The position numbers and the translations under genes are program-made. DNA of 64,000 nt from Hydrogenimonas sp. (GTDB lineage: Bacteria > Campylobacterota > Campylobacteria > Campylobacterales > Hydrogenimonadaceae). The stretch is taken from assembly GCA_015490295.1 (NCBI GenBank), contig WFYC01000066.1, positions 62,001-126,000 on the forward strand. Direction: 5' to 3'. The notes beneath the pieces were generated by a model, which saw only the letters and a program-made list of their open reading frames with translations, was not told the origin of the DNA and ran no database searches. This document shows, in pieces, positions 5,756-47,589 of this stretch; position 1 is the first letter of the stretch, and every line of letters starts with the position of its first letter.

Positions 5756-6886
5756 GTGTCATCGATGTTTATCCGTTCCATCCTCGCCGTTTTTTTTGCA
5801 GTAGGAGTGCTGCTCGCCACAGAACCGGAACCTTCGGTTTTCCCGGATTACGAACTCGAGTGGAGTGAAGAGATCAATGAGACGACTGCAAAGCCGGCAG
5901 AGAAACTCATATATCTAAACCTGGAGAAGCTTCCGGAAAAGATATATGTCGGCCAGATATTTCCGGTCACTCTCAAGGTGACTTCCCTTGAAAGAGAGAG
6001 GCCTTTCGAGATAAGAGTCGAAGATGGGGAAAACGTCGAAATTGTACAAGAGCCGGAGAAGATCGAACCGAAGGCGATAAGCCGGATCAGATACTTCTTC
6101 AAGGCGACAGGAAAGTACATTCGTCTACCGGATTTCATAGCCTATTACGTTGATGAACCGCAAAGAGAATACAGAATCGAAGGGAGCGGCATACAGGCCG
6201 TTCGACTCAACCCTCCAAAAGATTTCTCCAACGTCCTGGCGCAGAATATGGAGCTTGTCAACTATCAGGCTTCGACATACACGAACGACAGCAATGTCCT
6301 GGCGCTTCAGCTTAGAATCGAATACGGCAACTATGGCGATTTCCGCCTTCAAAACTCATCAAACCAGGGAATCGACTCCTACAGCGGAGATTTGAACGAT
6401 ACGACACTCTACTATTACGCCGTCTATCCGGCAGGACTCGAACAGCTATCGTTCAGCTATTTCAACCTTCAAAAAAACAGGTACGAAAAGTTTCATATAC
6501 CGATTATAGTCAAACGCAGCAGCGTAAGCACGCAAAGCAACCTCGACCCGCAAGCGAGTGAGTTCACTAAATTCAAAATAGCGGCAACCGGATTTTTGAT
6601 ACTCCTTTGGCTCGTTCTCTGGGCTCTGCGTAGAAGCTGGATCTATCCCCTGCTCATAATACTTGCCGCAGGATACCTGATAACGTACCTGATACCGCTG
6701 AAGAGTGTCTGTATAAAACCCGAAAGTAGACTATATCTGCTTCCCACTGCACAGAGTACACCTTTTATGACGCTCTATGAGCGTACGTATGCGAAAAAGA
6801 TGAATGGTAACGAGAGCTACACCAAAATCCAATTGCCGAACAATACGATAGGATGGATCAAGAATGAAGATCTTTGCTCGAATTAG
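5756..6886 (+). CDS. Exported membrane protein, BatD-like N-terminal beta region and C-terminal SH3-like segment
   Basis: Signal peptide, central TM helices, C-terminal IQLPNNTIGWIKNEDL resembling an SH3b end; GTG start directly after purQ. Confidence 0.6.
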   Translation: MSSMFIRSILAVFFAVGVLLATEPEPSVFPDYELEWSEEINETTAKPAEKLIYLNLEKLPEKIYVGQIFPVTLKVTSLERERPFEIRVEDGENVEIVQEPEKIEPKAISRIRYFFKATGKYIRLPDFIAYYVDEPQREYRIEGSGIQAVRLNPPKDFSNVLAQNMELVNYQASTYTNDSNVLALQLRIEYGNYGDFRLQNSSNQGIDSYSGDLNDTTLYYYAVYPAGLEQLSFSYFNLQKNRYEKFHIPIIVKRSSVSTQSNLDPQASEFTKFKIAATGFLILLWLVLWALRRSWIYPLLIILAAGYLITYLIPLKSVCIKPESRLYLLPTAQSTPFMTLYERTYAKKMNGNESYTKIQLPNNTIGWIKNEDLCSN

Positions 6887-7571
6887 GTTCTACTACTCCG
6901 CATTGGTAATCTCTTGCATAGTCTCGGTGATGATCATACTCCTCAAGCTCCTCCCGAAGCAGAAAGGAAAAATACTTCACTACGGCAACAGAACCATGAT
7001 GGCGCTTATGTTCGCGGATATCGAAACGGCAGGGGAGCCGGACCCGAAAGCTCAACTCTATCTTCTCAACCATCAAGGCATTGTAGATATAATCACGATG
7101 GAGGCGCTGCAGGACAAAAATATGAACTGGGTGGCCAAGAGAGAACTTTTCGAAGTTCCATGGTTCGGCAAACTCCTTAAAAACGGTGAGATGATATCGA
7201 TAGATAGAAGCGATAAAAGAGGTTTGATAAAACTTCTAAAAGATATCAAACACTCCATATACGTACTGCACAGGCCGGTCGCCCTCTTTCCTGAAGGGAC
7301 TCGGGCAAAAGATCAGAAGCTCCTGCCATTCAAAGAGGGGGCCAAATTCATAGCTGAAAAGCTGGAACTCGTAGTTCAACCTGTAGTGATCGTCGGAAGC
7401 AAGAGAGTCGTCAACGAGCATGACAGAACCTCTTTCGGAGGAGATGTGAAGGTCATTTTTCTCCCCTCTATAGATATGAAGAGCGCCTCTTCGGACTGGT
7501 ACAGGCAGCTGAGAGAAAAAATGCAGGAGACTATCGACAAAGAGCTCGAAACGAACTCTGTCAGCAGATAG
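6864..7571 (+). CDS. plsC: 1-acyl-sn-glycerol-3-phosphate acyltransferase
   Basis: NHQGIVDI (NHxxxxD-type) and FPEGTRA motifs. Confidence 0.88.
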   Translation: MKIFARIRFYYSALVISCIVSVMIILLKLLPKQKGKILHYGNRTMMALMFADIETAGEPDPKAQLYLLNHQGIVDIITMEALQDKNMNWVAKRELFEVPWFGKLLKNGEMISIDRSDKRGLIKLLKDIKHSIYVLHRPVALFPEGTRAKDQKLLPFKEGAKFIAEKLELVVQPVVIVGSKRVVNEHDRTSFGGDVKVIFLPSIDMKSASSDWYRQLREKMQETIDKELETNSVSR

Positions 7572-7605
7572 CCTTACTCCTTTGCCAAATTCCGGTCATC
7601 CGGCA

Positions 7606-9087
7606 TCACAGCTTCGCTTGGAGTAGATCGAGAGTTTTCGACTCGTTGGAGTCGTAATCGGGCACCCACTTCTTGAGACACTCTCTATCTTTTACGCACG
7701 GATCCGTGAGGCTCTTTAAAAATGCCACCAGCTCTCTTAACTGCTCATCGCTGAAATCTACACTTCTATGGGGAGATATTCCGCTGTTACGGTTTGCTTC
7801 CAACTGCTGAAGTGCATGCCGGGTATTCTCTTTCGTATCTTTGCACTGCGCCAAAATTCCATACTGAAACAGACTATTTTCATCGAACTCGAGAGCGGTC
7901 TCCGGCTTGAGCATATGTCTTACCATAGCTTCGAGCGTAACGAATGCTCCGTCATGCCCCCATGGGCCGGTAACCTCCACATTCAGAAGAGTAGGCGTTC
8001 TGAACTTATATCTATCCGACTCGTTGAGCGTAACGTTCTCGCGCCCGTAATCCTCGGTCGAAGCGTCGTGGTTTTTCCCGCGTCCGATTTGCGGAACGGC
8101 CATTACATACAGCTTCTCACCGGTAAAAAAATCTCCTTTGTGGCACTGTACGCAGTTGGCACCGCCCTCTTCGTAACTTCTGAAAAAGAGGTAGGCTCCC
8201 CTCTTCGCCTCCTCGCTTATCGCACTTCTATCCCCTTTGAGATACCTGTTCCAGGGGTTATCGACAAAGAGTTGAGAACGCTCGAATTCCGCTATCGCAT
8301 TGAAGATATTACTTCTCGTTATCAGGGTTGCGGCGTCTGCCGAAGGGTTGGAAAAGCCATCTCTGAACGCCTGCAGCCAAGCCAGGCGAGCGGAACCGTT
8401 CAGGTCGCTGTTGCCGTTGAATCCGCCGAGTCTGTCGACGAGATAATCTCTGACATCATCTTTTGTAACGAGGGAGGAGTGGCCGAAACCGCGCATCTCC
8501 GGCGAACTTGTTACCGGAAAGTTGGCCTGGGCGGCGGGGAGGTTGGCCGCCTGGGCACTTGTCCATAGCACTCTGTCGAAATCGCTGCTGCCGGGTACCA
8601 GCATCTGGCCTACAGAGCCGTTGGCCCCTTTCACGGGAGTTATACTCTCTATTCTGGCATCCCAGAACTGCGTACGGTCAAAGAGCGCCACATTGAATGT
8701 AGATGGAGTGTTTCTGGGTACCGTAGGCCCGCCGTCATAGTAGTGGCCGCTCTCTTTATGAAGACGGCCCGGGCCGACATGATCTGGATCTACAGCCTCT
8801 ACGCCTATCGGAAGAGATAGAGCGTCCGAACCGCCGAGAAACGGGTGGTGGCACGAGGCACAGGCTGAATCCATATCGAGCCCGAGATGTTTGGAGTAGA
8901 AGAGTTTCATTCCGAGCTGCGCTTTCGGATCGTTTACAGATGTGATGTTGCGGTCGGCAGCGGGATCACCGGTAAGGCTGTACTTTTCGGCCAGTGACAA
9001 AAGCTCGCTGTCGAGATCGTCGTTACTGCTACATCCTCCAAATATCAAAACCGAAAGAGCCAGAGCTGTAACCATATAACTTTTCAT
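7606..9087 (-). CDS. Di-heme cytochrome c peroxidase / MauG-family lipoprotein
   Basis: Lipobox LIFGGCSSN; two CxxCH motifs (CASCH, CVQCH); PTLLNVEVTGPWGHDGAFVTLEAMVRHM. Confidence 0.9.
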   Translation of the reverse strand: MKSYMVTALALSVLIFGGCSSNDDLDSELLSLAEKYSLTGDPAADRNITSVNDPKAQLGMKLFYSKHLGLDMDSACASCHHPFLGGSDALSLPIGVEAVDPDHVGPGRLHKESGHYYDGGPTVPRNTPSTFNVALFDRTQFWDARIESITPVKGANGSVGQMLVPGSSDFDRVLWTSAQAANLPAAQANFPVTSSPEMRGFGHSSLVTKDDVRDYLVDRLGGFNGNSDLNGSARLAWLQAFRDGFSNPSADAATLITRSNIFNAIAEFERSQLFVDNPWNRYLKGDRSAISEEAKRGAYLFFRSYEEGGANCVQCHKGDFFTGEKLYVMAVPQIGRGKNHDASTEDYGRENVTLNESDRYKFRTPTLLNVEVTGPWGHDGAFVTLEAMVRHMLKPETALEFDENSLFQYGILAQCKDTKENTRHALQQLEANRNSGISPHRSVDFSDEQLRELVAFLKSLTDPCVKDRECLKKWVPDYDSNESKTLDLLQAKL

Positions 9088-39258: not shown

Positions 39259-41232
39259 TTATACCACATCTTCCTTTTCGGGGCCTTTTTCTATATCCTC
39301 TATCGGTGCCGGCTCTTGAATGTAGTAGCCCTGCGCTACATCTATTCCAAGCTCACGAACCTTTTTGTAAATCATCTCGTTGCTTACAAATTCCGCTACC
39401 GTTCTGATGCCGAGTTTTTTTGCGAAATCTATTATCGCCTCCACGATCACCTGGGCATTTTTGTCGTTATGAATATTTCTTATCAGCGACCCGTCTATCT
39501 TGATAAAGTCGGCTTTAAGCTTTATAAGGTAGGAGAAGTTGGAGTATCCGGTACCGAAATCGTCTATCGCTATCTGGCATCCAAGATCTTTCATTTCGTT
39601 TACGAAACTCTCCACCTCCGGAAATATTTCGATATTTTCACTCTCGAGAAGCTCGAATATCACCCTATGCGCGACACCGTGATGAACAATCCTCTCTTTA
39701 ATATAAGAGACGGTTTCAGGATTCAGGATATCTTCAACCGAAAGGTTGATCGAGAAGGTTAGATTTTTTCTGTTTTTGAAAAAAGCACAGCTTAGCTCCA
39801 CCACTCTCATCGTCATGAACTGATACTGATGGCTCTTTTGCGCAAGAGGAAGAAACTTATATGGCGAGACCACTTCGCCATCCTCTTTGATAAGCCTGAC
39901 AAGTACTTCGTAACCTTTGATTTTCTTGCCCTCTACATCATACAGAGGCTGAGCATATGGAACTATCCTATCTTGCGCGAGGGCACTCTTAATCTCTCTT
40001 ATCCAGTAGATATTCTCTCTGTATTTGGTTTCAAGATTCCACTCTGAAGAGAAGATCATAATCGGCTTTCTTTGCTTTCTGGCCTCTTTCAGAGCCATGT
40101 CGGCCTGCTCTATCATCGGCGCCTCTTCGACTGTACAGCCGATAGTAACACGTATATCTACCCGGTTCTCTTCATAATAGAAGTGGGTTCTTTCTATTTT
40201 GCTACGGACGGAGTTCAAAAAAGCTTTCGCCTCGTCCAGATAGAACTTTCCGTTTTTAATAAGGACGAACTCGTCACCTGAAATACGGTAAGCACGGTCG
40301 ATATCCAGCTCTCCAAGCGTATCGGCGAAGTTTTTCAGAATAATATCTCCGGCACGATGGCCGTAGAGGTCGTTGATTTCTGTAAAGTCATCTATATTCA
40401 CAATTGCTACAAGCGCCTCACTCTGTTTTGAGAGATCGTCCATCAAGGCCCGTCTGTTCGGCAGTCCTGTAAGCTGGTCCGTATAGAGCTGCTGCCACAG
40501 TTGTGCGGTCTTTTCTTCGACTTTTTGGGAAAGAATCTGTTTCATATTCTCCTGCAGATCGGTATATGCAGTTACATTCTCCTGCATCTTCCGAACTGCA
40601 TTCATGATAAGTTTGATCTCTTTGTCATCGCTTTCGCAGTCCAGTACCAGATCTTTACCTTTTACATCATACTCTGCAAGTGCACCTGCTACCTTTTTCA
40701 GAGGTATGAGGCGTTTTCTTATCTGATAAGCGAGAGCTATAAACAGAAGCGTCGCGACAGAGAAAAAGAGAAGCAGAAGACGTGTCATCTTCTGAACCAT
40801 CTCACGATAGTGCATACTGGAGTAGTGAAGCTGAAGCAGCGCTATCTGCTTGTTTCCACCAGGCTCGAAAATGGGAGTCGCTATCTGAAAAGTCTCGGTT
40901 TGAGCGTTCAGCCCGTTGGAGTGGCGCTTCATCTTTCTGATGATCTCTCCGTTTTTCTTCAGGTATACAGCAAGAATATCCTTTTCGGTCATTATCTGCT
41001 TTACGGCCTCATCGACCTTGTCATTGAAGCCCAGATAGAGGTTTATTCCGATCTGCGGTGCGAACATCTTTGCCACAAGTTCCGCCTTTTCCCTCTCCAC
41101 ATCATAGAGGGTCTTTTTTCCTATATGTTCAAAAACGAAAAACATCGACGCTAATACTATAAGAGCGACAAAAAGGACATAAAAGATGATCTTGGTAGAG
41201 AGTGAATACCCTTTCTCACTCTGCATCGACAA
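39259..41232 (-). CDS. Membrane GGDEF-EAL protein with periplasmic sensor loop
   Basis: Two TMs around a periplasmic region; QLTGLPNRRALMDDL ... RISGDEF; EVLVR, DDFGTGYSNFSYLIKLKADFIKIDGSLI. TTG start at 41232 or ATG at 41226. Confidence 0.93.
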   Translation of the reverse strand: MSMQSEKGYSLSTKIIFYVLFVALIVLASMFFVFEHIGKKTLYDVEREKAELVAKMFAPQIGINLYLGFNDKVDEAVKQIMTEKDILAVYLKKNGEIIRKMKRHSNGLNAQTETFQIATPIFEPGGNKQIALLQLHYSSMHYREMVQKMTRLLLLFFSVATLLFIALAYQIRKRLIPLKKVAGALAEYDVKGKDLVLDCESDDKEIKLIMNAVRKMQENVTAYTDLQENMKQILSQKVEEKTAQLWQQLYTDQLTGLPNRRALMDDLSKQSEALVAIVNIDDFTEINDLYGHRAGDIILKNFADTLGELDIDRAYRISGDEFVLIKNGKFYLDEAKAFLNSVRSKIERTHFYYEENRVDIRVTIGCTVEEAPMIEQADMALKEARKQRKPIMIFSSEWNLETKYRENIYWIREIKSALAQDRIVPYAQPLYDVEGKKIKGYEVLVRLIKEDGEVVSPYKFLPLAQKSHQYQFMTMRVVELSCAFFKNRKNLTFSINLSVEDILNPETVSYIKERIVHHGVAHRVIFELLESENIEIFPEVESFVNEMKDLGCQIAIDDFGTGYSNFSYLIKLKADFIKIDGSLIRNIHNDKNAQVIVEAIIDFAKKLGIRTVAEFVSNEMIYKKVRELGIDVAQGYYIQEPAPIEDIEKGPEKEDVV

Positions 41233-41755
41233 ACCTTACTATGCTGTAAAGAGAAGGTGCAAAGAGAGTCCCGGCTTTTTGAAGTACCGCCCTGTTCATA
41301 TATATGACGGTAGACTGCTCTATAGTCAAGGCGAAAAGCGCTCCATATTTCAAATCTTTGAAATCATACACAAAAACCGGAATCTTTTCACGAAGAGCGA
41401 AATCTACAGCTCTTTTCATATCCTCTTCATCGGCTTTCAAAATATAGAACGCATCGGAGTGAAACGGCGGCTCCAACTCTCTGAAAGTGGCCATCTCCGC
41501 CTCGAAGGAAATACCGCCCAGGCTATGATCGTAATATGCCTCTATCTTGTCGACGATCTTCTCAGCCGTAAACTCGTCTTCAGGCTCGTAAAGTACAGTA
41601 AAGACGACCGGCTTGTTATTGTGCCTGGCTGCAATTCCCTCTTCGAGCATCAAAAGTTTGGGATATATTCTGCTTTGTGCATCAAGAAGCAGTTCGTTAT
41701 AGGTATACCCCCACATCGACTGCCAAAAAATCAGCAAAAGAGCGATATACCGCAT
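41216..41755 (-). CDS. Small exported protein, YfiR/DUF4154-like
   Basis: Signal peptide MRYIALLLIFWQSMWG; C-terminal GALFALTIEQSTVIYMNRAVLQKAGTLFAPSLYSIVRFVD resembles the YfiR family end; flanked by TonB receptor and GGDEF-EAL genes. Confidence 0.55.
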   Translation of the reverse strand: MRYIALLLIFWQSMWGYTYNELLLDAQSRIYPKLLMLEEGIAARHNNKPVVFTVLYEPEDEFTAEKIVDKIEAYYDHSLGGISFEAEMATFRELEPPFHSDAFYILKADEEDMKRAVDFALREKIPVFVYDFKDLKYGALFALTIEQSTVIYMNRAVLQKAGTLFAPSLYSIVRFVDAE

Positions 41756-43831
41756 TTAAAACGCCTTTGCAACTGTAAGCATTACCGTACGGCCCTCTGC
41801 GGGAAAGTCGGTGTCATAGTTATACGGTTCTGACGGGTAGTGAATATCGGCATCGAAAATATTCTTTGCACTCAATCTGATTTTATACCCTTTTCCCCCT
41901 TCATAACCTATGGTCAAGTCCAAAGCGGAGTAAGCAGGAACTTTATCTTTTCTATAATCATAAGTAGCTCTCTTTTTTGAACTGACATAACGGGCTATCA
42001 AACCGGTTTCCCAATTTTCGGAGAGTGCCATATGGTATGTCATTTTGGCCAATCTTTTAGCTACATTGTCGAGCGGCTGATGGTTCGACTTTTTTCCGTT
42101 TAGTTGCGTAAAGTTAAAATAGAGTCTTCCTATTTTCAGTATATGTGTTTTATACTCAACAGTCACCCCCCAAATATCTGAACTTCCGCTGTTTCTGTAT
42201 TGATGGTCACTATTGAGATTGTCGATTTGATCACTATTTTTTAGATAGAATAGATTCAGTTGAACGAACTCGTCGATTCCGAATCTGTGAATATAAGCTC
42301 CCTCCCAGGCATTGACAACTTCCGGATCAAGATTGTGGTTCCCGACGCGTGCACTGTTGTTCAGCGTATAGACCTCCTGCCATGAAGGAGTACGGATAGA
42401 GCGACTGTAGATGAGCTTGTAGACATTGGAGCTGTCAAACTGATATACCGCTGAAACTCTAGGATTAAATTGGGTCGAAATATTGTTGTTTTTCTCGATA
42501 TTCAAACCGGCCTGAAAAGTCAAACTCTTAGAATACCGATAGCGATCCTGAAGAAAAACTCTCCATGTAGTACGCTCTGCATCCGGGTCGGTAAAGGGCA
42601 AAATTTCAGAATAGTCCAAAAGACCTATGCCGTCAGAACGGTCTGTAGTTATGGTAAGTTCCTTCAGTGTCTCATCTTTGGATACAAAATAACCAAAATC
42701 AAACCTGTGAGATTCAAAACCGTCGGATGTCGCATAAGTACTTTGATATATTTGCCTCTGATTTACTTCGTGTATGCCATAAAATCCATCCGGGAATGCC
42801 AAAGGTTGTTCTATAAAACCGTTTGAAGTTAGTGTAACTGGGAAAATCAACCCTTGTGGTGCAAGCATAGATGCACTCTTAAACGAACTAAGTTTAACTC
42901 CTCCCTTCACAGAAATAATCCAGTCTTTGAAACTCTTTTCATAACTTACTTGAGCATATGAGAAAGGGAATTTTGCATGGTCGGATGGTTGCGGAAGCAT
43001 TCCATTAATACCGAATGCACTTCCTCTTTCATAATATAACGTTCTAGCGTCAAGTCTAAAAGCGCCATATTGCACGCGTAATCCCATCATATAGCTGCGC
43101 ATCCATAAAGGCGCTTCCCCATCTCTTGAAAGAGGTACGTTTACAGCGCCGTAACGCCTGGTAGACAAGGCATCTTTGCCTACCGGCAAAGACTTTTCAT
43201 CCTGCTGGTAGTAAATATCGGCATAAACAGATAATTCATCTGCTTCATGCCTGAAAACCGCTCCACCCATTTTATAGTCATAACTTCCGGCTTTCACTAC
43301 AAACCTTTTTTGGTTCCCCTCCATAGGTAAATGCTCGGCATAAGTAATTACTCTTATAGAACCGGCATACGCATTGACCCCATTACTTATACCTCCGGGG
43401 CCTCGTGTAACTTCAATACGTTTTATCATCTCAATGGGCATAGAGAGCCATGCACCGTAACTGTCGAAAAAGAGATCATTTACTTCAACATCATCAACGA
43501 ATAGTTTGCTTTGACCAAATGCGAATGGATTCGAACCTCGAAAGACAAGACGTTGATTATCCATATTGTCTGTCGCGATATCTACTCCAGGTACCAACTG
43601 CAACGCTTCTTTTAGATTTGAAACACCTAACTTCTCTAGTTCTTTACCGGAGAATACTGAAATTATATATGGTTGATATGGTTCACTTATTTTGGTCTGT
43701 TCTGCAAGTTTTCCTATTTCATGTGCATCTTTACCAATACTTTTTACAAGATTTTTAACATTTAAATCACTACCATTTGCTGCCAAATAAAAAGTTGAAA
43801 TCGTTAAAAAAATATTAATAAACTGTTTCAA
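41756..43831 (-). CDS. TonB-dependent outer membrane receptor
   Basis: Plug domain (LKEALQLVPGVDIATDNMDNQRLVFRGSNPFAFGQSKLFVDDVEV, IEMIKRIEVTRGPGGISNGVNAYAGSIRVIT) and beta-barrel; TTG start behind AAGGAG. Confidence 0.93.
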   Translation of the reverse strand: MKQFINIFLTISTFYLAANGSDLNVKNLVKSIGKDAHEIGKLAEQTKISEPYQPYIISVFSGKELEKLGVSNLKEALQLVPGVDIATDNMDNQRLVFRGSNPFAFGQSKLFVDDVEVNDLFFDSYGAWLSMPIEMIKRIEVTRGPGGISNGVNAYAGSIRVITYAEHLPMEGNQKRFVVKAGSYDYKMGGAVFRHEADELSVYADIYYQQDEKSLPVGKDALSTRRYGAVNVPLSRDGEAPLWMRSYMMGLRVQYGAFRLDARTLYYERGSAFGINGMLPQPSDHAKFPFSYAQVSYEKSFKDWIISVKGGVKLSSFKSASMLAPQGLIFPVTLTSNGFIEQPLAFPDGFYGIHEVNQRQIYQSTYATSDGFESHRFDFGYFVSKDETLKELTITTDRSDGIGLLDYSEILPFTDPDAERTTWRVFLQDRYRYSKSLTFQAGLNIEKNNNISTQFNPRVSAVYQFDSSNVYKLIYSRSIRTPSWQEVYTLNNSARVGNHNLDPEVVNAWEGAYIHRFGIDEFVQLNLFYLKNSDQIDNLNSDHQYRNSGSSDIWGVTVEYKTHILKIGRLYFNFTQLNGKKSNHQPLDNVAKRLAKMTYHMALSENWETGLIARYVSSKKRATYDYRKDKVPAYSALDLTIGYEGGKGYKIRLSAKNIFDADIHYPSEPYNYDTDFPAEGRTVMLTVAKAF

Positions 43832-44408
43832 AGAAAAGCTCCTTGTTCAACTTTATTAACTCATCCGTAAACATAACGCATGGTGCACGCAATCTATTTC
43901 CATACAACTGATAAGACCCAATGGGATGATAGGGCATTTTCAAAATCAGAAGTAGTCTTAAAAAACTCTCTTCCAACGAACCATAGGAACAAACAATGCC
44001 CATATCTTTCATCTTTTTGCCTGCATTGATCTTAACCAAATCGATTATTTGTTTTGTATTTTTTATACCTCTGCAATCTTTTCTTATGAATATACGAGAT
44101 AGTTCCCCGATTGTCTCACTCTCTTCATACGGCAGTAGTTTCAGTTTTTCTCTTTCGTCTATTTTCAGTGCATTTGCAGCCGGATATCCAATTTTAGAAT
44201 GATGGACCAAGCGTACACAGGCCGCAAGTTTTTCATATTTGTCAAAAAAAGCATACTGTATGCTATACTTATCATACCTATCGCTCTCATATTTATCTGG
44301 ATAATTATTTTTGTCAAAAATCCCCTCTTCTTCACATGCTATCTGATACCTAAAACGATAAATTTCTTTTATTAATCTTTCATCTTTTGCTTCAATACAT
44401 TTGAACAT
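43815..44408 (-). CDS. LuxI/exosortase-associated/FeeM-type N-acyltransferase (GNAT-like autoinducer synthase family)
   Basis: RFRYQIACEEEGIF, YESDRYDKYSIQYAFFDKYEKLAACVRLVHHSKIGYPAANAL, IGELSRIFIRKDCRG: E-x-D-x-(Y/F)-D, cRLv and E-L-S-R motifs in family order. Start set at MFKCIEAK behind AAGGTGG. Confidence 0.7.
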   Translation of the reverse strand: MFKCIEAKDERLIKEIYRFRYQIACEEEGIFDKNNYPDKYESDRYDKYSIQYAFFDKYEKLAACVRLVHHSKIGYPAANALKIDEREKLKLLPYEESETIGELSRIFIRKDCRGIKNTKQIIDLVKINAGKKMKDMGIVCSYGSLEESFLRLLLILKMPYHPIGSYQLYGNRLRAPCVMFTDELIKLNKELFFETVY

Positions 44409-44475
44409 TTTAAACCACCTTATTGCTTTAAGAATTATTATCACAAAGATGAGCTTAAATTTACTCAAATAGTCG

Positions 44476-47400
44476 TCATTTCGGGTGTTTTATCTCTATT
44501 TTGTATAGAATCGAAAAGAGCAGAGGTACGAAATAGAGGTTCAGTACCGTCGCCCAGATGAGTCCGAATCCCAGGGTTACCGCCATCGGCTGCAGAATCA
44601 GTGCCTGTCCCGAAGCGAAAAACATGAGTGAAGAGAGCCCAAGGACCGTCGTTATCGATGTGAGCAGTATCGGTCTTAGCCTTAGCTTTGCTCTCTCCAG
44701 CAGCGAATCGAGGTCTTTACACTTTTTTATGAAATCTATCATTATGAGGCCGTCGTTGACGACAACTCCCGAGAGTCCCACGATACCTATGAGACTCGGC
44801 ATCGTCAGGTTTATACCCATGATGTAGTGGCCTATCAGAACGCCGAGTATCGAAAGCGGTATCGTCGAAAGTGTGATCAGCGGCAGAGCTATCGAATCAA
44901 ACATCCAGACGAGCGCCACGAAGATCAGAAAGATCGCTATGACCGCCGACTGTATAATCTCCCGTTTTACAGTTCGGTTCTCCTTCTCCTCCCCTTTTAT
45001 ATCTATGGAGATCCCCTCCTTTTCTAGATTCTTGAAAAGCGGAGCGAGCCTCTCCATCACCTCGGCGGATGTAACGAGACGCTTATTCAACGATGCATAG
45101 ACGGTGCTGACCCTCTCTCCGTCCACCTTGAAGATCTTCGCGAAGCTCTTCTTTCTCTCGAAATCCGCTATCTCGTAAAGCTTCACCCACTCCATGCGGC
45201 CTGGGACCTGCAGTTCGAAGCGCTTCAGCGTCTCGTAACGCTCCTTGTTCATATCTTCCATGCGGATGCGAACCAGGCCCTCGTCGTTGAACATCTTCGC
45301 ATACTCACCTTTGAGAAAAAACGGCTGCAGTGCGGCGGTCAGGGCACCTTCGGTAAATCCAAGCAGCTGCCCGTAGCTGTTCAGTCTGAGCTTCAATTCG
45401 TCTTCACCCTCTTTCGCATCGTCGCTTATGTTATGTACTCCATCTATTTTCGAGAGCTCGTCTTCCACCTTTTTGAGCGCCGAATAGACCTTTTGGGCAT
45501 CTCCGCCGAAAGATATCTCGATATCGCTCTTTACGATTCCGGCCTGCGGCACTATCACGTTCAACTCTTTAAAGAGCGGTCCGTAGCTGTCCTTTTTAAG
45601 CCTGAAAGGCTCTACGATCTTCTGAATCTGCTCAGCCACCTCCTGTGCCGAGCGCTTTCTCATCATGTCGGAGTCGTTGTATTCCGGGCTCAGGTAGGGG
45701 TTTATGTAGCGGTCGAAGAAGTTCTTCGGCACCGGCTCATGGAGATTCACGAATATATGAAACAGATTGTCCGCATGCTCCCCTTTATTGTTACTGTCTA
45801 CCTTCAGCCCGATTACTGCGGTTATCGAAGATACATCCTCTTCGGGAAGCCTCTTGAGCAGCTCCCGCTCCAGTTGTGTGACTATCTTTTCGTTTTCGAA
45901 AAGGTCGTTGTTTATATCTACCTCGCCGTTTACATATATCTGGGTGGTGTCGAAATCGGGAAAGAGCTGAAAACGGCTCTGCTTGGCAAGTATATAGGTC
46001 ATCGATCCGATAAAAAGAAGCATGAGAAAGACGGAAAGATACCTGTGTCTGACCATGGGTCGCAAAATAGCCGCGTAGATTTTATAGTTTTTCTCCCAAA
46101 AACGGCGTGTGAAGCTCGCCTCTTTTGTAGGTTTGAGTATATCTTTCGCATGCAGAGGAAGAAAATAGAACGCCTCGAACAGCGAGCTTACAAGCAGAAT
46201 GCTTATCATGACCGGAAGCACTTTTATAAACTCACCCAGCTTGCCGCTGAGCATCAGAAGCGGTAAAAACGCGAATACAGTCGTCATCGTGGCAGTAAGA
46301 ACCGCAGGAAACATCTCCACGGAACCCTTTATGGCCGCCTCTTTCGGCTCCATCCCCTCCTCAATATAGCGGTAGATGTTTTCGGCTACGACGATAGCTT
46401 CATCCACGAGCATACCCAGGGCTATCAGAGTACCAAGAAGCGTGAGCATATTGAGGCTGTAGCCGAGAATCTCGGAGGCGACCAGGCCTATCATGAAGCT
46501 TACCGGAATGCCTACCGCGACGACGAGTGCGATTCTGGCATTGACGAAAAGAAGCATCGACAAAAATACGAGGCTGAGACCGAAGATTATATTGGAGACT
46601 ACGGTATTGAGACGGTTCTTTATCCATATGGAGGTGTCGGTATAGACATTGAAGGTAAGATCCTGATAGCGTTTCGAGTAGCCCGAAAGGAGCTCCCTGA
46701 TCTGCTTTGAGAGGGCTATCGCGTTACCATCTTCGGACTTGCTGACGGAGATGGAGACATTCTTTATGCCGTTAAAGTGGGAGATCTCCGACGGATCGCT
46801 GAGTGTAAACTTCACCTCTGCGATATCTTTGAGCCTGATCGTCTTTCCGTCTATCCTTAAAAGTGTCTCACCCAGGGCCTTCGCATCTTTTTCACCGTTT
46901 ATCGTACTTACGAAAAGGTGGTTACCCCGCTCCTTGATAAAGCCTATAGGAAATATGGAGGCGATATTCGACAGAGCGCTCACGACCGAACGTTTCGTAA
47001 GTCCGTAAGCCGCAATCTTTTCGGAATTCAGAAGTATATCGAGCTCATCGTCGGCGTCGCCGTAGACGGCAATGTCGCTAAGGTCCTTGAAATAGGCCAG
47101 GTCGCCCTTTATCTCCTGCGCTACCTGAAGCAGCCTCTTTTTCGGAACATCTCCGGCCACCGCTATGATGACGAGAGGAAAACTTCTCTTTGCCACCTTG
47201 GCGATGGGCTCGTCCATATCCGAAGGGAGATCCCGCCGGATATTGGCGATGATATCTTTGACGTCGCTTAGAGCCAGGTCCGCATCGTTTCCGGGCTTTA
47301 TGTCGGCACCTATCGAGAAAGAGCCGTTTTTGATAACGGACTCTATGGTATCTATTTCGCTCAGGTTCTTCAGGCCGTCCTCTATGGAGTGCACGGCCAT

Positions 47401-47589
47401 CTTGTCGAGCAGGTCCGCACTCGCCCCCGAGTAGTGGCCAGTCACGACTATTCTGTCGAGGTTTGCGGGTGGAAATATCTCTTTGGGAATATTTATATAG
47501 GCAAAAATGGAGAGGATGAGCATAAAAACTAGAAATATATGGTTGAGTATAGGCTTCTCTATGGCAAATCTTACAAACTTCTCTATCAT
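44476..47589 (-). CDS. RND superfamily efflux permease (AcrB/HAE1-like)
   Basis: 1037 aa, LGMLVDEAIVVAENIYRYIEEG, GLSGVVVNDGLIMIDFIKK, duplicated TM/porter layout. Confidence 0.93.
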   Translation of the reverse strand: MIEKFVRFAIEKPILNHIFLVFMLILSIFAYINIPKEIFPPANLDRIVVTGHYSGASADLLDKMAVHSIEDGLKNLSEIDTIESVIKNGSFSIGADIKPGNDADLALSDVKDIIANIRRDLPSDMDEPIAKVAKRSFPLVIIAVAGDVPKKRLLQVAQEIKGDLAYFKDLSDIAVYGDADDELDILLNSEKIAAYGLTKRSVVSALSNIASIFPIGFIKERGNHLFVSTINGEKDAKALGETLLRIDGKTIRLKDIAEVKFTLSDPSEISHFNGIKNVSISVSKSEDGNAIALSKQIRELLSGYSKRYQDLTFNVYTDTSIWIKNRLNTVVSNIIFGLSLVFLSMLLFVNARIALVVAVGIPVSFMIGLVASEILGYSLNMLTLLGTLIALGMLVDEAIVVAENIYRYIEEGMEPKEAAIKGSVEMFPAVLTATMTTVFAFLPLLMLSGKLGEFIKVLPVMISILLVSSLFEAFYFLPLHAKDILKPTKEASFTRRFWEKNYKIYAAILRPMVRHRYLSVFLMLLFIGSMTYILAKQSRFQLFPDFDTTQIYVNGEVDINNDLFENEKIVTQLERELLKRLPEEDVSSITAVIGLKVDSNNKGEHADNLFHIFVNLHEPVPKNFFDRYINPYLSPEYNDSDMMRKRSAQEVAEQIQKIVEPFRLKKDSYGPLFKELNVIVPQAGIVKSDIEISFGGDAQKVYSALKKVEDELSKIDGVHNISDDAKEGEDELKLRLNSYGQLLGFTEGALTAALQPFFLKGEYAKMFNDEGLVRIRMEDMNKERYETLKRFELQVPGRMEWVKLYEIADFERKKSFAKIFKVDGERVSTVYASLNKRLVTSAEVMERLAPLFKNLEKEGISIDIKGEEKENRTVKREIIQSAVIAIFLIFVALVWMFDSIALPLITLSTIPLSILGVLIGHYIMGINLTMPSLIGIVGLSGVVVNDGLIMIDFIKKCKDLDSLLERAKLRLRPILLTSITTVLGLSSLMFFASGQALILQPMAVTLGFGLIWATVLNLYFVPLLFSILYKIEIKHPK

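Follow-up and report, generated by a model that had tools for sequence, protein, structure and literature searches.

ScrABC of Vibrio parahaemolyticus comprises, within one operon, a signal-making enzyme, a signal-responsive periplasmic protein and an inner-membrane GGDEF-EAL protein, and its output is c-di-GMP. ScrA is an aminotransferase, ScrB is a periplasmic binding protein, and neither a TonB-dependent receptor nor a LuxI-like synthase belongs to the system (PMC11315295). In NspS-MbaA of Vibrio cholerae, a periplasmic protein acts on a GGDEF-EAL protein with SGDEF and EVL motifs, and the ligand decides whether c-di-GMP is made or broken down. The ligands are polyamines, and the unit is described without a synthase or an outer-membrane receptor (PMC8079147). 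YfiBNR of Pseudomonas and DgcN-YfiR of E. coli pair YfiR with YfiN or DgcN, which have the layout TM-periplasm-TM-HAMP-like and no EAL domain; in E. coli, the YfiR and GGDEF genes (yfiR-dgcN) overlap. Acyl-type signalling has hardly been looked for in Campylobacterota. In a study of vent-shrimp epibionts, luxS and luxR were found; luxI and AHLs were sought, and neither was found (PMC5362221).

The locus analyzed here consists of four minus-strand ORFs, overlapping or abutting, in a Hydrogenimonas assembly (Campylobacterota; G000, 85 contigs, 82% complete). The window, which is the whole stretch of DNA that was analyzed, is 64,000 nucleotides long, and the features are listed in Table 1. No description of this four-gene cassette was found in the open-access literature searched, and a search there for YfiR or DUF4154 together with TonB-dependent receptors gave nothing relevant. 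We lean towards reading the cassette as a self-contained sensory system, in which a self-made N-acyl signal would act through a receptor and a relay on a c-di-GMP switch.

Table 1. Features of the cassette and of its upstream flank, in positions of the window
Feature	Position	Strand	Details
N-acyltransferase (acyl-amide synthase), LuxI/FeeM-like GNAT, 197 aa	43815..44408	(-)	catalytic-type residues R20, D43, D46, R66, E102, R105
TonB-dependent receptor, 691 aa, plug + barrel, dedicated clade	41756..43831	(-)	start TTG preceded by AAGGAG
YfiR-like periplasmic protein, 179 aa	41216..41755	(-)	signal-peptide-like hydrophobic N-terminus, no cysteines
GGDEF-EAL protein	39259..41232, likely start ATG 41226	(-)	two likely TM around periplasmic domain, HAMP-like linker, SGDEF, EVL
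Gap, 67 nt, upstream RND gene to synthase start	44409..44475	(-)	ribosome-binding-like site AAGGTGG
RND-family efflux pump gene, outside core cassette	44476..47589	(-)	upstream neighbour in Hydrogenimonas only

The ORF check of the window recovered the four same-strand genes where they had been predicted, with the receptor stop abutting the start of the YfiR-like gene. Two overlaps of 17 nt had also been claimed. The one between the acyltransferase and receptor genes stood, and AAGG-type sites precede both the synthase ATG (44408) and the receptor TTG (43831). The other probably did not: the GGDEF-EAL gene more likely starts at the ATG at 41226 than at 41232, because an AAGG lies upstream of it and this start matches an 11-nt overlap in a relative. 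The YfiR-like and GGDEF-EAL genes would therefore overlap by 11 nt.

The cassette had a GC content of 41%, lower than the 48% of the window. At third positions, GC was 0.32 in the synthase gene and 0.36 in the receptor gene (together 41756-44408), well under the 0.51 of the relay and GGDEF-EAL genes in the same operon; four neighbouring genes had 0.51-0.63. A plasmid search for the cassette gave no match. The RND pump gene stands beside what we take, by eye, to be rsmH and an ftsL-like gene. The pump was rejected as exporter of the product, since it adjoins the cassette in Hydrogenimonas only and is thus not core, and no dedicated exporter for the cassette product was found.

The first gene had been predicted to encode an acyl N-acyltransferase, and family profiles, structural matches of its model and catalytic residues agreed with this. 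In a single-sequence profile search, the window synthase matched Acetyltransf_5 (PF13444), as did 24 of 24 family members. The autoinducer synthase, TIGR03694 and FeeM models named in the original prediction all matched family members, but the window synthase alone matched only TIGR03694, at 67 bits and so below the cut-off of 112. Autoind_synth (PF00765) was matched by 23 of 24 relatives at E 0.1 or better; the window synthase alone gave no match, and two relatives run singly scored 26.7 and 22.7 against a cut-off of 24. The FeeM profile (PF21926) was matched by 16/24 relatives, the window synthase itself being unmatched. A TraI-type AHL synthase model was matched by 15/24 members and OlsB, more weakly, by 8-10/24. 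When the family profile was compared with solved chains, LasI (2.8e-7), RpaI, TofI, BjaI and MesI were matched, and EsaI weakly. The AlphaFold model of the synthase had a pLDDT of 96, and its top 11 solved matches were AHL synthases and FeeM; other GNATs ranked behind them.

Residues R20, D43, D46, E102 and R105 were invariant in 63 of 63 synthase sequences, and R66 was kept in 57, the remaining six being possible alignment shifts. This charged set corresponds to R24, D45, D48, R70, E101 and R104 of LuxI. The aromatic residues of LuxI were mostly replaced: F28 was F in 10/63 sequences and W34 was W in 5/63, and the window synthase has A and I. Profiles, model and residues thus support an acyl-amide synthase family, LuxI/FeeM-like and with catalytic residues. 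Because the charged set is kept and F28 and W34 are mostly replaced, the amine donor may be other than S-adenosylmethionine. An AHL is a possible product, though the balance tips slightly towards an N-acyl amino acid.

Classical AHL quorum sensing would explain the LuxI-type catalytic residues and fold by a LuxI-type synthase that serves an intracellular LuxR-type regulator, with the other cassette genes as incidental neighbours. We consider this very improbable. The two aromatics are not kept in most members, and a LuxR link was rejected because no Autoind_bind (LuxR) domain was present in any of 18 Hydrogenimonas genomes, so that the LuxR partner domain of the LuxI/LasI systems is missing. 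The neighbours are also not incidental, as the synthase-receptor-module linkage is conserved across families.

The FeeM and TIGR03694 N-acyl amino acid synthases share with the cassette family the fold, the PF13444 match, the GNAT core and, for 16 of 24 relatives, the FeeM match, but their genomic partners differ. Of the NCBIfam models, TIGR03694 was the one matched by every member (24/24), and it would allow an exosortase-associated acyltransferase that serves PEP-CTERM protein sorting. Such a role is scarcely credible: the score of the window synthase lies below the model's cut-off, no exosortase was found in the host assembly at its 82% completeness, and the genes constantly found beside the synthase are those for the receptor, the YfiR-like protein and the GGDEF-EAL protein. 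The exosortase link was therefore disfavoured.

PF13444 is also a domain of aminolipid N-acyltransferases (PMC11631085), and its match to all members, together with the weak OlsB matches, is what an OlsB-like enzyme making an aminolipid or its lyso form would give. The receptor and c-di-GMP genes would then sense the state of the envelope or surface, with no released signal. This is quite unlikely, since OlsB is outdone by the TraI-type AHL synthase, TIGR03694 and FeeM models in the number of members matched or in the quality of the match, the fold search ranks AHL synthases first, the cassette contains no second-step O-acyltransferase, and the dedicated receptor would be left unexplained.

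A further hint about the product came from genes of the leucine-carboxyl-methyltransferase family (PF04072). At L125, a PF04072 gene and the synthase (6178-7705) are followed by the receptor module in one locus. At L126/L144 and L130/L143, the PF04072 gene overlaps the synthase (L144:5957-7424; L143:7755-9283). This direct coupling was seen in an Arcobacter-type clade. Were the PF04072 enzyme to methylate the product, a carboxylate would have to be present, as it is in an N-acyl amino acid but not in an AHL. PF04072 also includes other O-methyltransferases, and the coupling is only a hint at an N-acyl amino acid and not an AHL. In another genome, a PF04072 gene adjoins a longer FeeM-type synthase with a cyclic-nucleotide-binding domain (L157:6920-8750).

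The plug and the barrel of the receptor both scored above their profile cut-offs, identifying it as a TonB-dependent receptor. No further receptor domain, including an N-terminal signalling domain, was found in profile searches. In the receptor tree, 47 synthase-linked rows and the row of G134, which has a decayed synthase, formed one clade (support 91/87). This receptor clade is specific to the synthase. Receptors of rearranged cassettes share another clade with three receptors that have no adjoining synthase; one of the three, L089, stands right at a contig end, and whatever gene precedes it lies outside the assembled sequence.

The small periplasmic protein had been called YfiR-like, and structure prediction confirmed this at the level of fold. 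The relay model had a pLDDT of 91 and TM scores of 0.69-0.77 to YfiR, normalized by YfiR length; it also matched a small substrate-binding protein. DUF4154 (PF13689, YfiR/HmsC-like) was matched by 7/30 relay relatives, and the window relay alone gave no Pfam match. YfiR of P. aeruginosa has disulfide cysteines. The window relay has none, and the mature part was cysteine-free in 56 of 82 relatives. A sequence comparison with E. coli YfiR gave a negligible match, and the cassette, unlike YfiBNR, has no YfiB.

TonB-dependent receptors are mostly uptake proteins, and the fold of YfiR-like proteins is also that of substrate-binding proteins. An acquisition system is thus to be considered, in which the enzyme would make a lipidated amino-acid chelator as an acylated carrier for metal, the receptor would import the loaded carrier, and the YfiR-like and GGDEF-EAL proteins would report uptake, signalling being secondary. 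The closest receptor models by sequence, namely siderophore, B12, haem and colicin I receptors, point the same way, but the similarity to the siderophore receptor models was weak and far under their cut-offs. The cassette also has no inner-membrane transporter and no chelator-building gene (NRPS, hydroxylase), and its constant partner is a c-di-GMP enzyme. We regard acquisition as unlikely.

The identity of the fourth protein was borne out by a complete EAL catalytic set, as full-length cassette proteins retain the residues at the ExL, N, E, DDFG, K, E and Q positions. Its TM-periplasm-TM layout was read from the sequence, and HAMP was matched in 17/25 relatives. Among 39 cassette rows, which include some genomes twice and one cut row, the GGDEF motif was SGDEF in 28 and GGDEF in 2. 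The SGDEF form cannot be called dead, because V. cholerae MbaA has the same SGDEF/EVL pair and both of its activities are evidenced in vivo (PMC8079147). CHASE8, the YfiN-type periplasmic domain, gave one weak match among 25 relatives. The N-terminus showed a negligible sequence match to E. coli DgcN and, against solved structures, only weak matches to chemoreceptors over the HAMP-like part.

The four-gene order recurred in Hydrogenimonas, Nitratiruptor, Sulfurimonas, Arcobacteraceae and others, across vent and sediment Campylobacterota. The arrangement is not due to chance, as the order repeats in dozens of loci from several families and the host genome has only 5 TonB-dependent receptor genes. 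In a set of 150 relatives, the synthase was found in 25 genomes, in two of them as fragments only. One scan covered 34 named loci and was biased, because cassette members had seeded it; 27 of the 34 had all four genes in order, 3 broke off at a contig edge after the receptor or relay, in 2 the synthase itself bordered the contig end, and 2 synthases had no receptor alongside. A less biased survey covered 397 genomes of the phylum Campylobacterota, with counts made by hand from tables. The 190-aa type synthase was present in 31 and the receptor clade in 32; 29 genomes had both, 2 the synthase alone, 3 the receptor clade alone and 363 neither (Fisher p 2e-38, kinship ignored). The predicted co-conservation was thus upheld by the repeated order and the 29/397 co-occurrence. 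Neither of the two findings that were to count against the original prediction, no acyltransferase match and no co-occurrence, came about.

The exceptions in the survey were inspected individually. The synthase-only genomes were G007, with the solo type of Hydrogenimonas, and G357, with the synthase at a contig end. Among the receptor-only genomes, fragments of a synthase lie directly upstream of the receptor in G134 and G318, and G437 has none. In G134 and G318, the decayed synthase precedes an intact receptor, relay and GGDEF-EAL gene (L080:8060-8301; L151:6722-7086); receptor modules thus outlive a decayed synthase. In G427 and G354, the synthase is separated from the receptor module, each having its own site in the genome, and the receptor still falls in the same clade.

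A second, related type of synthase, solo and without an adjoining receptor, occurs in five Hydrogenimonas genomes (L068, L074, L076, L078, L079), near genes that by eye we take to resemble a RecD-type helicase, phosphomannomutase and tetrahydrodipicolinate succinylase (dapD). At L145-L150, in six genomes of one genus, synthase, receptor and relay form an operon and the GGDEF-EAL gene is divergent upstream.

Synthase-free receptor modules were found in G437 and as a second copy in G265, and more distant receptor-YfiR-GGDEF modules without a synthase also exist. Because such modules exist, the receptor-relay-enzyme core can sense other ligands. The host genome itself carries a paralogous receptor, YfiR-like protein and GGDEF protein (GGEEF, no EAL) without a synthase (L096:612-4497, contig C4). 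Units like this one in other families suggest a general receptor-YfiR-GGDEF sensory module.

Synthase and receptor appeared to diverge together. Within Hydrogenimonas, between G010 and the window, G002 and G017, identities were 70-73% for the relay and 78-82% for the GGDEF-EAL protein, against 46-51% for the synthase and 54-55% for the receptor. The DNA identity of G010 to the window drops over the synthase and receptor genes and is higher on both flanks. Sulfurimonas L122 showed the same pattern, its relay and GGDEF-EAL protein being alike and its synthase and receptor diverged. Across 40 loci, synthase and receptor identities correlated when GGDEF-EAL was controlled for (partial r 0.40, Mantel p 0.001); synthase identities also correlated with those of the other two genes. 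The receptor tree set G010 apart (92/93), and the alternative was not rejected (p 0.165). These patterns are suggestive of recombination of the synthase-receptor pair in G010, and they suggest that signal and receptor may have changed as a pair. A strict one-to-one match is loosened by several pairs in which the synthase alone was diverged or exchanged and the receptor was alike (L108/L140; Arcobacteraceae vs Sulfurimonas).

For the sensory system that we favour, the following mechanism is proposed. The GNAT enzyme would take a fatty acyl group from acyl-ACP or acyl-CoA and attach it to an amine donor, for which an amino acid is the likeliest candidate, and the resulting small N-acyl amide would leave the cell. 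We infer that this product serves as a signal and that the cognate TonB-dependent receptor captures or imports it at the outer membrane. The periplasmic ligand, or the ligand-loaded receptor, would alter the state of the YfiR-like protein, which would in turn contact the inner-membrane GGDEF-EAL protein and act on its periplasmic domain. The latter protein would shift between c-di-GMP synthesis (SGDEF) and breakdown (EVL), in whichever direction, and a decision about surface or dispersal could follow the local level of a molecule that the cells produce. Counting for this system are the conserved linkage, the folds and the catalytic residues, the synthase-specific receptor clade, the joint divergence of synthase and receptor in two lineages and the receptor modules that survive a decayed synthase; counting against it are the synthase-free receptor modules, the solo synthases of Hydrogenimonas, the pairs in which only the synthase changed, the negligible sequence match to E. 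coli YfiR and DgcN and the lack of a dedicated exporter. A more specific version is put forward tentatively, a system of quorum-sensing type: the N-acyl amide, probably either an N-acyl amino acid or the methyl ester of one, would be perceived at the outer membrane by the TonB-dependent receptor and relayed through the YfiR-like protein to c-di-GMP, and once a synthase has decayed, its receptor may persist as an eavesdropper.

The cassette looks like an undescribed route for sensing a self-made acyl signal. The linkage of synthase and sensor, which could be transferred to a laboratory strain, makes it testable which acyl signal is produced by these bacteria of vents and sediments, whether acyl signals can have a TonB-dependent protein as their receptor, and what purpose FeeM-kind N-acyl amino acid synthases serve.

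Among described systems, the best reading of our comparison would make the cassette a counterpart of ScrABC and NspS-MbaA without homology to them. It would follow the logic of ScrABC, in which a molecule is produced, perceived outside the inner membrane and used to switch a GGDEF-EAL protein. Its output enzyme is similar to MbaA and its relay to YfiR, but ScrA and the synthase come from different families. What sets it apart from ScrABC, NspS-MbaA and YfiBNR is a TonB-dependent receptor that would sit between signal and relay, a component undescribed for these systems in the literature compared.
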